Of a DNA stretch of 64,000 nt, positions 12,587 through 15,690 are shown one piece after another (within the stretch, counting starts at the first letter, position 1; every line of letters begins with the position of its first letter). Location of the stretch: assembly GCF_019968905.1 (NCBI RefSeq), contig NZ_CP079946.1, positions 7,227,356-7,291,355 of the forward strand, given 5' to 3'. The translations under genes and the position numbers were made by a program. The stretch is from Corallococcus sp. EGB. Its GTDB lineage: Bacteria; Myxococcota; Myxococcia; Myxococcales; Myxococcaceae. The notes below the pieces were generated by a model. The model ran no database searches. It saw nothing but the letters and a program-made list of their open reading frames with translations, and had not been told where the DNA came from.

Positions 12587-14032
12587 TCAGCGGCCCTGCG
12601 GGAAGTGGCGCCGGGTGATGGACTCCACCAGCGCCTGCGTGGTGGAAGTGTACCCGATGCGCTGCTCCTCCGCCGTGAGGCCTTCGGCCCCCACCAGCGA
12701 CGGCGCGGACGGGGCCGAGTCCATCAGCGGGAAGTAGCCCTGGGGCGTCGGCTCTCCCGCCTGCCCCACCAGCCCCAGCGGCCCGCTCCCCGTGCGGCGG
12801 CGGAAGATGACGGGCGTCCCCGGGATGCTCTGCTTGCCCTCGGCCAGCTCGTTGCCGAACTTCATCACCGGCGTCGCGCCCGAGCACGACAGCTTGTAGA
12901 TGGCCGACACCCGGTCGCGCGTCAGCACATGGGACATGGTGCGCGCCACGATGTGGCCGCCGTAGCCGTAGAACTGCGTCGTCGCCTCCCAGCCCACCTG
13001 CTTGCGCAGCTCCTCGAACTCGCGCGTCATCTGCGCGTCCAGGCCGTCCTCCAGGATGATGACCGGCTTGATGCCCAGGTCCCGCGCGCGCGTCACCGCG
13101 TAGAGGTACTGCAGCTTCTTGTTCCCGGAGTCGAACCGGATGGAGTCCCCACCCTGCGGATCCTCCGAGATGAGCTTGAACGCCGCCGGGATGCCCGAGG
13201 TCAGCGTGTCGAAGGTGTCCAAGAGGTAGCTGGAGCGCTGCGGCCGGCGCTCGTGCATCGCGCGGTAGGCCGCGTCGTCGGAGCCGTAGCGCTGCACGTG
13301 CTCGTGGCCCATCGTGCCCACGGGAATCATGTCCAGCGCCCGGGCGCCCTCCACGTTGCTCGTGCGCTGCACGCCCGCCTCCTTGCACGCGCGCAGGGCC
13401 AGCACGTGCTGCTCCAGGCAGGTCGCCGCGCGCAGGCCCACCTCGAAGATGCGCGAGGGGTCCCCGACCACGTCCACCAGCTCCTTCACCTGGGCCCGCA
13501 CGCGGCGCAGGTAGCCCTCCGTGTCCACCTGGATGGACACGGCCTTCACGCCCACCTGGTCCAGCGTCTCCAGGGCGATGCGCTTCTCCTCCTCGCACGA
13601 CACCGTGGCCAGCGTGCGGGCCAGGGCCTCGCGGTCCTGCAGCGCCTGCGTGGCCACCTGCACGCGGTAGTTGAGCTGGAGCAGCAGCGGCTCCAGCCAG
13701 GACACCAGCGCGGACGGGCCCGTGAGCGTGAGGACGGGCTCGCGCGGCAGGAACACCGCGCCCCGCGGAACCGCGCGCACGGACAGCTGGGCCTTGCGCA
13801 GGATGGCCGCCTTGAAGCCCACGCCCATCTCGTAGTCGTGCCGGGCGAGGAACGCGTAGTCCTCCGGCTTCGGCTCCGGCAGCAGGCCCTTCACCCACGC
13901 CTCCAGGTCCAGCGGCATCACCTGGGGCCCGCCCTTGCGGTGCGAGTAGTAGAACGTTTCCTTCCGCAGGGGCCAGCCGGCCTCCGCCATGCTGAACTTG
14001 TAGCCATCCGTGGCGAGCAGCGACTGGGGCAT
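12587..14032 (-). CDS. pncB: Nicotinate phosphoribosyltransferase
   Basis: Transfers phosphoribosyl from PRPP to nicotinate, making nicotinate mononucleotide for NAD salvage. Family features are the N-terminal LLATDGYKFSMAEAG, FYYSHRKGGPQ, SNVEGARALDMIPVGTMGHEHVQRYG (with the active-site His region), LLDTFDTL-SGIPAAFKL, IRFDSGNKK, and the phosphate loop region TQFYGYGGHIV. The 481-aa length fits the longer bacterial/eukaryotic-like class. ATG 14032 places the conserved YKFSM motif near the start; the in-frame upstream part is not family-like. Co-transcribed with the nicotinamidase-like gene. Confidence 0.88.
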   Translation of the reverse strand: MPQSLLATDGYKFSMAEAGWPLRKETFYYSHRKGGPQVMPLDLEAWVKGLLPEPKPEDYAFLARHDYEMGVGFKAAILRKAQLSVRAVPRGAVFLPREPVLTLTGPSALVSWLEPLLLQLNYRVQVATQALQDREALARTLATVSCEEEKRIALETLDQVGVKAVSIQVDTEGYLRRVRAQVKELVDVVGDPSRIFEVGLRAATCLEQHVLALRACKEAGVQRTSNVEGARALDMIPVGTMGHEHVQRYGSDDAAYRAMHERRPQRSSYLLDTFDTLTSGIPAAFKLISEDPQGGDSIRFDSGNKKLQYLYAVTRARDLGIKPVIILEDGLDAQMTREFEELRKQVGWEATTQFYGYGGHIVARTMSHVLTRDRVSAIYKLSCSGATPVMKFGNELAEGKQSIPGTPVIFRRRTGSGPLGLVGQAGEPTPQGYFPLMDSAPSAPSLVGAEGLTAEEQRIGYTSTTQALVESITRRHFPQGR

Positions 14033-14229
14033 CGGGCAGCGACTCCTTATCGTTGACCCAAAGACTATGCGCGCACCCCACCTCGTACCTAGGGCCCAGG
14101 GGGCGATGACTGCGGGAAACCACGGGTGGCCCGTCACCCGCATTCCTCCTGCAACCGACACATTGCGGAATACGCTGGATGCGACAGGTGCGGTTAAGCT
14201 GTCGCGACACACAACGAAGCCAGGTGCCC

Positions 14230-14874
14230 ATGCCCGCAGAGAACGAGACGCAGAAGGTCGAAGCCGTACTGCGCGAACATGCGATGAGCTATCCCGGCGC
14301 CCACGAGGACTTTCCCTGGGGCCACCGGGCGATGAAGGTCAATGACAAGACCTTCCTCTTCATGACCGTGGACGGCGAGAAGCTGAACCTCTCCGCCAAG
14401 CTGCCCGACTCCAAGGACGCGGCCCTCACGCTGCCCTTCACCGAGCCCACCGAGTACGGCCTGGGAAAGAGCGGCTGGGTGACCGCCCACTTCGAGGACG
14501 CCTCGCAGGTGCCGGTGCCCGTCATCAAGGCGTGGATCGACGAGAGCTACCGCGCCATCGCGCCCAGGAAGCTGGTGGATCAGCTCCCCGCGCGGGGCAC
14601 CGTCGTCCCCGGCCCCGCCGCGAAGCCGTCCAGGGCCGAGGGCAAGAAGGCCTCCGTGCGCCGGGCCGCGGCTCCGGCGAAGAAGGCCATGTCGAAGGTG
14701 AAGGCCGTGGCCAAGAAGGCCGCCGCCCGCGTGAAGACCGCGGCGAAGAAGGCCACCCAGAAGGTCTCGAAGAAGGCCTCCGCCGCCAAGGCCAAGCCGG
14801 CGCGCAAGGCCGCCGCTCCGGCCCGGGGCAAGCGCTCCGCCACCTCCGCGCCCAAGCGCGCCCGCCGCTCGTAG
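14230..14874 (+). CDS. MmcQ/YjbR-family protein with histone H1-like C-terminal tail
   Basis: Residues 1 to about 120 form an MmcQ/YjbR domain (SYPGAHEDFPWGHRAMKVNDKTFLFM, LPDSKDAALTLPF, YGLGKSGWVTAHF), a small fold proposed to bind DNA. From about residue 128 the protein becomes an almost pure Lys/Ala/Arg tail of about 85 residues with repeated AKKA and KPARKA units, like eukaryotic H1 or bacterial Hc/AlgP tails. This points to a nucleoid-binding protein (inference). ATG 14230 was chosen since the domain starts there. The gene is divergent from pncB and convergent with ppa, whose product carries a closely similar basic tail. Confidence 0.8.
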   Translation: MPAENETQKVEAVLREHAMSYPGAHEDFPWGHRAMKVNDKTFLFMTVDGEKLNLSAKLPDSKDAALTLPFTEPTEYGLGKSGWVTAHFEDASQVPVPVIKAWIDESYRAIAPRKLVDQLPARGTVVPGPAAKPSRAEGKKASVRRAAAPAKKAMSKVKAVAKKAAARVKTAAKKATQKVSKKASAAKAKPARKAAAPARGKRSATSAPKRARRS

Positions 14875-14900
14875 CGGGCCCGCATCACCCCGCGTGGACG

Positions 14901-14920
14901 AGGGGCCCGCCGGGGCCCCT
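14901..14920. terminator. Bidirectional hairpin between convergent genes
   Basis: A perfect 8-bp inverted repeat (AGGGGCCC, loop GCCG, GGGCCCCT) lies midway between the convergent yjbR-like and ppa stop codons. Location and stem strength suit a shared terminator, though neither side has a long T-run. Confidence 0.45.
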
Positions 14921-14955
14921 GCCCTGCTCCGCGCGTGACGGACTCCAGGAAGCGG

Positions 14956-15690
14956 TTACTTCCCGCCCCGGTTGCCACGGCCCGAGGGGCCCTTGGCCGA
15001 GGCCCTGGCCTCGGGGGCCTTGCGGCGGGCCGAGGGCGCGGCCTTCCGGGCGGGCTTCGCGTCCGGCTCCACGAACAGCTTGTCGTAGTCGCGCATGCTG
15101 CGGCGGATGACCTCCAGGGCCTCCGGCCGGTCGTAGACCTCGGCGATTTCGACGCTGCGCTTTCCCTCGCCCGGAATCTGCTTGTAGGTGAGGAAGTAGT
15201 GCTTCAGGCGGTCCAGCAGCGGGCGCGGCAGCTGCGCGATGTACTGGAGCTCGCCGTACACGAGGTCCGACTCCAGCACCGCGATGATCTTGTCGTCGGC
15301 CTCGTTGCCGTCGACCATCCGGAAGCCGCCCACGGGCACCGCGTGCACCAGCAGGTTGCCGTTGGAGACGACCTTCTCCGTCAGCACGCAGATGTCGATG
15401 GGGTCCCCGTCGCCGTGGATGTCCTTGAGGCCGGTGCGCTCCGCGCAGCGCTTCGCCACCTGCTCGCCGCAGTACGTGCGCGGGATGAAGCCGTAGAGCG
15501 ACGGGCACTGGCTGCTGAAGCGCTGGGGGCGGTCCAGCATCAGGATGCCGGACTCCTTGTCCATCTCGTACTTCACCGCGTCCGTGGGGACGATCTCGAT
15601 GTACGCGGTGACGACTTCAGGCGCCTCCGGTCCGGGCGCGATGCCGTGCCAGGGGTGGGCCTGCGACGTGGTCTGGGGGCTCTTCTTCAT
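14956..15690 (-). CDS. ppa: Inorganic pyrophosphatase, family I, with basic tail
   Basis: Hydrolyses pyrophosphate in the cytosol with Mg2+. The family I signature DGDPIDICVL (Asp94, Asp96, Asp99) and the GFIPRTYC segment are clear. Nearby are KIIAVLESD and a downstream LKHYFLTYKQIPGEGKRSVEI. At 244 aa it is longer than E. coli Ppa (about 176) because of an N-terminal extension and a C-terminal Arg/Lys/Ala-rich tail of roughly 36 residues (from about 208), an unusual addition. Its ATG overlaps the plsC stop by 4 bp, so ppa is the last gene of an epmA-plsC-ppa operon. Confidence 0.92.
   Translation of the reverse strand: MKKSPQTTSQAHPWHGIAPGPEAPEVVTAYIEIVPTDAVKYEMDKESGILMLDRPQRFSSQCPSLYGFIPRTYCGEQVAKRCAERTGLKDIHGDGDPIDICVLTEKVVSNGNLLVHAVPVGGFRMVDGNEADDKIIAVLESDLVYGELQYIAQLPRPLLDRLKHYFLTYKQIPGEGKRSVEIAEVYDRPEALEVIRRSMRDYDKLFVEPDAKPARKAAPSARRKAPEARASAKGPSGRGNRGGK

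Follow-up and report, generated by a model that had tools for sequence, protein, structure and literature searches.

The small domains YjbR, TfoX_N and DUF1801 occur widely, and their biochemical role is not well established. The YjbR/MmcQ proteins of solved structure (E. coli YjbR, 2fki; P. syringae PSPTO_3016, 3h9x; D. radiodurans DR2400, 2a1v) have the same domain and the same fold as the protein described here, but the matched chains are 117–138 aa long and therefore too short for a 90-residue tail, whereas our protein ends in a basic tail of 93 residues. In the portion of the source available to us, DNA binding by YjbR is inferred from a similarity to MotA in structure, surface electrostatics and conserved residues, and fusions of MmcQ/YjbR to EVE, GIY-YIG and other parts are described (PMC7641849); the partners in those fusions are protein domains, whereas here the partner is a disordered polycation. 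HupS and HupB likewise combine a globular domain with a long, disordered, lysine-rich C-terminal part (PMC11229371, in the accessible excerpt), but their globular part is HU, an established nucleoid protein, whereas the DNA-binding role of YjbR is putative. AlgP and PhaF resemble our protein in having a Lys/Ala/Pro-rich disordered C-terminus (PMC9239181, in the accessible excerpt), but they contain KPAA repeats, a motif absent from our tail sequence, and a different N-terminal domain. Similar in fold are the myxobacterial TfoX_N and DUF1801 proteins, small single domains with basic C-termini, as in the tailed YjbR protein, but assigned to Pfam families separate from YjbR. The design of a globular domain plus an H1-like tail is thus already known from HupS and AlgP, and it is the pairing with YjbR that is apparently new: a tailed YjbR protein was not found among the matches listed in a search of mostly open-access literature, in agreement with a sequence-only reading of this DNA, which had not recognised the arrangement as described.

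The gene lies in a 64,000-nucleotide stretch of the Corallococcus sp. EGB chromosome (hereafter, the window), at positions 14230..14874 of the forward strand, and encodes 214 aa plus a stop codon. Its start is the ATG at 14230, the Met of MPAENETQ, which is kept across Corallococcus while the sequence upstream is variable; no sigma-70 promoter-like or terminator-like site was found by consensus in 14050–14990. The YjbR domain (PF04237, aa 19–108, 14284..14553, +) scored 47.4 bits with its Pfam profile, whose cut-off is 30.1, and sits inside an acidic core of aa 1–120 (net −4, pI 5.3), followed by a C-terminal Ala/Lys/Arg tail of pI 12.0 (residues 122–214, 14593..14871, +), composed of A29 K20 R11 S8 V7 P7 G4 T4 E1 M1 Q1, with no D. 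The sequence-only reading had described a YjbR-type protein with a histone H1-like Lys/Ala/Arg tail and AKKA repeats, and both the architecture and the repeats (three AKKA in the tail) were borne out; the tail, which it had put at 85 residues, is in frame eight residues longer, and its interval 14592–14874 covers the tail only, starting at position 3 of codon 121, whereas the in-frame start is 14593. Conservation within the tail is highest in the middle, as seen in a 16-genome alignment, and this part includes two imperfect 11-residue units (VKAVAKKAAAR and VKTAAKKATQK, 14698..14763, +), and a C-terminal PARGKR...KRARRS block (14818..14871, +) is largely kept in Corallococcus, with a similar one in Citreicoccus (L019/L151). 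At the DNA level, TRF reported a single 37-base stretch of 12-base period in the tail and nothing more. AlphaFold2 predicted the tail to be disordered, with pLDDT means of 49–60 over residues 121–214 (69 for the last four) and no secondary structure assigned. An amphipathic helix was also considered for the tail and rejected: the best 22-residue moments of the 16 Corallococcus tails were barely above those of shuffled sequences (P = 0.05–0.21 each, for related sequences), moments were not raised in most other genera, and AlphaFold2 gave no helix there. The protein had no match to HC2, the histone H1-like nucleoprotein family (PF07382), at E ≤ 1 in Pfam and none to the anti-phage defence profiles of PADLOC (0 families at E ≤ 1), and its one match among phage families, to the tail, was at chance level (E = 0.6).

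The core was modelled with more confidence, the AlphaFold2 run on a 57-sequence alignment giving 10-residue means of 91–96 over aa 11–120 (except 73 at aa 71–80) and 82 at aa 1–10. Compared with solved structures by VIA, the model aligned with the YjbR proteins 2a1v, 3h9x and 2fki at Z = 12.3, 10.7 and 10.1, respectively, and Foldseek matched it to 2fki at E = 1.2e-5; in sequence searches of the PDB, a profile of the core found 2a1v as its sole match (E = 0.005), and the single protein found none at E ≤ 0.1. The DUF1801/frataxin-like chains 9t2w and 2oc6 scored Z = 9.1 and 8.9, and lower values, which below 8 may mean a common arrangement only, were obtained with CyaY (1ew4, 6.6), the C-terminal 'double-wing' DNA-binding domain of MotA (1kaf, 6.2; 5jlt, 6.1) and V. 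parahaemolyticus VP1028 (2od0, 5.8). We take 2od0 to be a TfoX_N structure, and SCOP presumably places YjbR, TfoX_N and DUF1801 in one fold; at the level of model comparison, the matches to 2oc6, 9t2w and 2od0 support a structural class shared by the three. That 9t2w, 2oc6 and CyaY all score above MotA would favour a frataxin-like core that binds a metal or ligand, with a tail that only localises it, but the YjbR structures align best, and according to the part of PMC7641849 available to us, the functional residues and electrostatics of CyaY are not conserved in YjbR and the MotA comparison is to be preferred; we consider a frataxin-like role very improbable.

Positions invariant over the 57 sequences include K40, K57, W30 and W83, and R15, K80 and W102 are nearly invariant. 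Because the core is net-acidic, simple electrostatic DNA binding by it is disfavoured, and a local basic patch on its surface is possible; one plasmid record annotates YjbR as DNA-binding. Taken together, DNA binding by the core itself appears doubtful, if still conceivable. The proposal of a nucleoid protein with two DNA-binding parts, as made from the sequence alone, therefore holds for the architecture and its recurrence (below) and is weakened by an acidic core whose fold is equally frataxin-like.

A database search for the same fusion, which the sequence-only reading had suggested, showed that the basic tail recurs. Among the best 80 of 154 named homologues, the top matches being Corallococcus species at 92–98% identity, a basic tail was present in 57, weak in 7 and absent in 16. 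Homologues lacking the tail, which had been anticipated as evidence against the idea, thus exist beside a tailed majority, and with 16 of 80 lacking it and 7 of 80 weak, the tail is an accessory element that is gained and lost. By phylum, as given in the record titles, basic tails were present in 45/49 Myxococcota, 5/8 Planctomycetota, 2/5 Pseudomonadota, 1/9 Acidobacteriota, 1/3 Fibrobacterota, 1/1 Melainabacteria, 0/1 Actinomycetota, 0/1 Gemmatimonadota and 2/3 unplaced loci. One of the two tailed Pseudomonadota loci, on a contig titled Comamonas (L207), encodes a YjbR protein whose place in the tree is among Myxococcus sequences and whose tail is similar to theirs, and this is possibly a mislabelled or contaminated assembly. 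A separate search of relatives gave a match in 38 of 59 genomes, own included, and all of the best 30 of these 38 matches, our gene among them, had a basic tail of net +6 or more. With a sample spread over genera (40 regions chosen for genus coverage, of which 13 with no or weak hits were dropped), a basic tail of net at least +5 was found in 18 of the 27 Myxococcota homologues of at least 100 bits; in the other nine the tail was short, weak, cut or absent, and among these nine, L094 runs off its contig and the gene of L085 has an internal stop. L088 and L027 represent a single gene. The 30-, 27- and 80-locus sets overlap; L063 and L218, for example, have the same tail, as do L019 and L151.

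Tail state changed 9–15 times on the tree of the homologues, a rough figure since 40 of its 77 inner branches are unresolved, and tail length ranged from 0 to 194 aa. The Myxococcus/Pyxidicoccus proteins (L182, L195, L197, L218) formed a starred branch of their own, apart from the Corallococcus branch, and their tails are basic too, with a sequence quite different from that of the Corallococcus tails, which suggests, as far as sequence comparison goes, that tails were separately acquired or rapidly renewed. Two further YjbR homologues (L158 and L212) had a short basic linker followed by a longer mixed-charge extension that looks receiver-like by eye. The Corallococcus sp. EGB genome also encodes another YjbR protein, from a different subfamily (L001:1501-1758), with a short PAKKAPARKRTV end. 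In a plasmid collection, the core matched two records at 40–43% identity, both actinobacterial and one of them 11.85 Mb long.

To compare families, we used a common measure, namely a net charge of at least +6 with at most 2 acidic residues in the last 25 residues. This was satisfied by 53 of the 80 named YjbR homologues, by 44 of 71 after removal of the nine nearest loci (L142–L150) and by all 30 of the best loci from the search of relatives, our gene among them, versus 18 of 422 neighbouring 'genes' (ORFs of at least 150 codons beside the 80 homologues, picked by composition; Fisher's test ignores relatedness) and 0 of 30 glyoxalase loci, a control that is largely one orthologue group and whose gene calls were crude, including spurious ORFs and missing the YjbR gene itself. 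In 400 kb sampled from the own genome, Obg was the one other ORF whose end is strongly Lys-rich. Selection was assessed across 16 Corallococcus genomes, among them the own genome, with the tail counted from residue 124: pN/pS was 0.73 in the tail versus 0.23 in the core, and acidic residues made up 2 of 118 minority residues in the tail, whereas the core had 7 of 30. From single-step nonsynonymous substitutions in the tail, about 11% acidic residues would be expected (binomial P = 1e-4, with relatedness and mutation bias ignored), and the net charge of the tail stayed at +29 to +36 although its length varied from 91 to 125. From these alignments, selection seems to hold the composition of the tail rather than its sequence, and fast drift with kept charge is how a polyelectrolyte tail would be expected to behave. 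The same pN/pS, the span of lengths and the repeated gain and loss (on a weak tree) could also fit a tail without a fixed role, a low-complexity extension growing and shrinking in GC-rich genomes; the avoidance of acidic residues and the enrichment over neighbouring ORFs and glyoxalase rule this out as the main reading and leave it improbable overall.

The reading that we favour, with chances that we judge to be evenly balanced, is that a disordered polycationic tail anchors the YjbR domain to nucleic acid and mainly to DNA. Such a tail would bind nonspecifically, for the most part to chromosomal DNA, and would hold the YjbR core on the chromosome, where the core might add a second activity through its conserved Lys/Trp residues, either by recognising DNA locally as the MotA 'double-wing' does or by binding a ligand. 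Nonspecific binding by the tail, most simply to DNA, is expected because an AlgP fragment and KPAA peptides bind DNA (PMC9239181, in the accessible excerpt) and lysine-repeat domains are said, in the part of PMC11229371 available, to occur 'predominantly in DNA-binding proteins'. The tail would very probably bind DNA in vitro, while a real nucleoid association in the cell could go either way.

To place the tail in its genomic context, we searched the 9.43-Mb own genome for a repeated Lys-Lys-Ala codon pattern, and obtained 35 matches, grouped into 12 places including the window gene, with 0 matches for a reversed-pattern control; the tail as a protein query had returned only itself, probably owing to composition handling, and the DNA pattern worked better. 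The carriers identified by Pfam were the Obg GTPase (L045:16659-18128), valyl-tRNA synthetase (ValRS, L138) and an RNB/S1 exoribonuclease (L139), with RsfS (L135, where the stretch is at the N-terminus) and a TfoX_N protein as further cases, along with SMI1/KNR4-like and AHSA1-like proteins (both slightly under the Pfam cut-off) and two ORFs with weak HC2 similarity; the other places were one ORF without a family and one not assigned to a gene (L141). The two weak-HC2 ORFs (L132:2190-2645 and L133:2178-2834, −) have long Lys/Ala/Arg stretches with similarity below the cut-off, and by sequence are candidate free H1-like proteins. Of the proteins of the own genome other than the tailed YjbR protein, five in all matched HC2, each weakly and below the cut-off. 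H1-like stretches are thus rare in this genome and yet extend beyond DNA-binding proteins, several carriers acting on RNA or the ribosome; since Obg, ValRS, RsfS and the RNase bear similar stretches, the tail alone does not signify 'nucleoid', and the nucleoid interpretation of the sequence-only reading was qualified accordingly. A tail directed to RNA or the ribosome, in a protein serving translation or RNA metabolism rather than the chromosome, would account for this company, and the best NCBIfam match of the protein was of the tail to valine--tRNA ligase (PRK14900, E = 1.4e-4, 19.9 bits, far below the cut-off). We regard such a role as unlikely: Pfam found no RNA-related domain in the protein, YjbR is discussed as DNA-binding (in the available part of PMC7641849) and so annotated in the plasmid record mentioned above, and the TfoX_N protein and the two weak-HC2 ORFs bear such stretches as well.

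Downstream, the neighbour of the gene is a convergent inorganic pyrophosphatase (14956..15690, −; PF00719, 138.7 bits), and upstream, a divergent phosphoribosyltransferase-like ORF (12587..14032, −; name and start by eye). The C-terminus of the pyrophosphatase is itself basic and disordered-looking (KPARKAAPSARRKAPEARASAKGPSGRGNRGGK), shorter than the YjbR tail, and a gene of like length with a similar basic end was noted by eye in four relatives (L142, L143, L145, L150); four of the six most basic of the 422 neighbour ORFs end like the pyrophosphatase, again by eye. Both neighbours were present in the same 10 of the 80 named loci (8 Corallococcus, one labelled Myxococcaceae and one Citreicoccus, in which the phosphoribosyltransferase-like gene is about 1.5 kb away), and neither was found in the other 70 within the flanks examined, some of which ended at contig ends. 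A general genomic link to the pyrophosphatase was rejected on this count of 10/80. This neighbour bears on whether the tail might bind granules of polyphosphate or other polyanions and position the protein there, as in AlgP, which associates with polyphosphate granules and whose KPAA C-terminus is required for granule spacing (PMC9239181, in the accessible excerpt); a pyrophosphatase with a basic end of its own would suit that role, but it accompanies only 10 of the 80 loci versus the 57 with basic tails, and our tail has no KPAA, so that a polyphosphate role appears quite improbable.

The preferred reading, in which the tail tethers the domain to DNA, can be viewed alongside the tails on similar folds. 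The TfoX_N protein of the own genome (L136:2393-2812, −; C1, about 1853988–1854266) has a KKAPAAKKA tail, and a basic tail of net +6 to +34 was present in all 30 Myxococcota TfoX_N proteins (the best 30 of 51 listed), 16 of which are loci of the window's genus, own included; beyond the genus but within Myxococcota, the tail was present in 14/14. By the common last-25 measure, TfoX_N reached 30/30 and DUF1801 17/28 in Myxococcota, the DUF1801 set being the 30 best-scoring places, two of them without an alignable ORF. DUF1801 tails were mostly short, and by whole-tail charge 16/28 reached net +5 or more, four of the 16 through a second domain read as tail. In a literature search over mostly open-access sources, no paper treating TfoX and YjbR together was found, and none among the matches listed named, by title, a TfoX with a histone-like tail. 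The recurrence of the tail on YjbR, TfoX_N and DUF1801 within a single phylum, and on the first two of these in other phyla as well, hints that these domains act where polyanions are, most simply DNA, and it adds to the evidence that bacteria make linker-histone-like proteins by joining disordered basic tails to unrelated domains. More speculatively, YjbR, TfoX_N and DUF1801 might together make up a class of chromatin-like proteins built from two parts, hitherto unrecognised, in myxobacteria and other environmental phyla, with an H1-like tail added to each of them repeatedly and independently; in that case the repeated independent tailing would imply that nucleic acid is what the fold naturally works on, and the tail would make it nucleoid-bound, a proposal that we advance only tentatively and think more apt to fail than to hold. 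Outside Myxococcota, where 27 genomes were searched for TfoX_N and 16 had a match, 22 loci were fetched, 14 of them aligned and 9 of the 14 had tails of net +5 or more, several of them short, and one of the nine (L312) had a longer extension that is not a plain basic tail.
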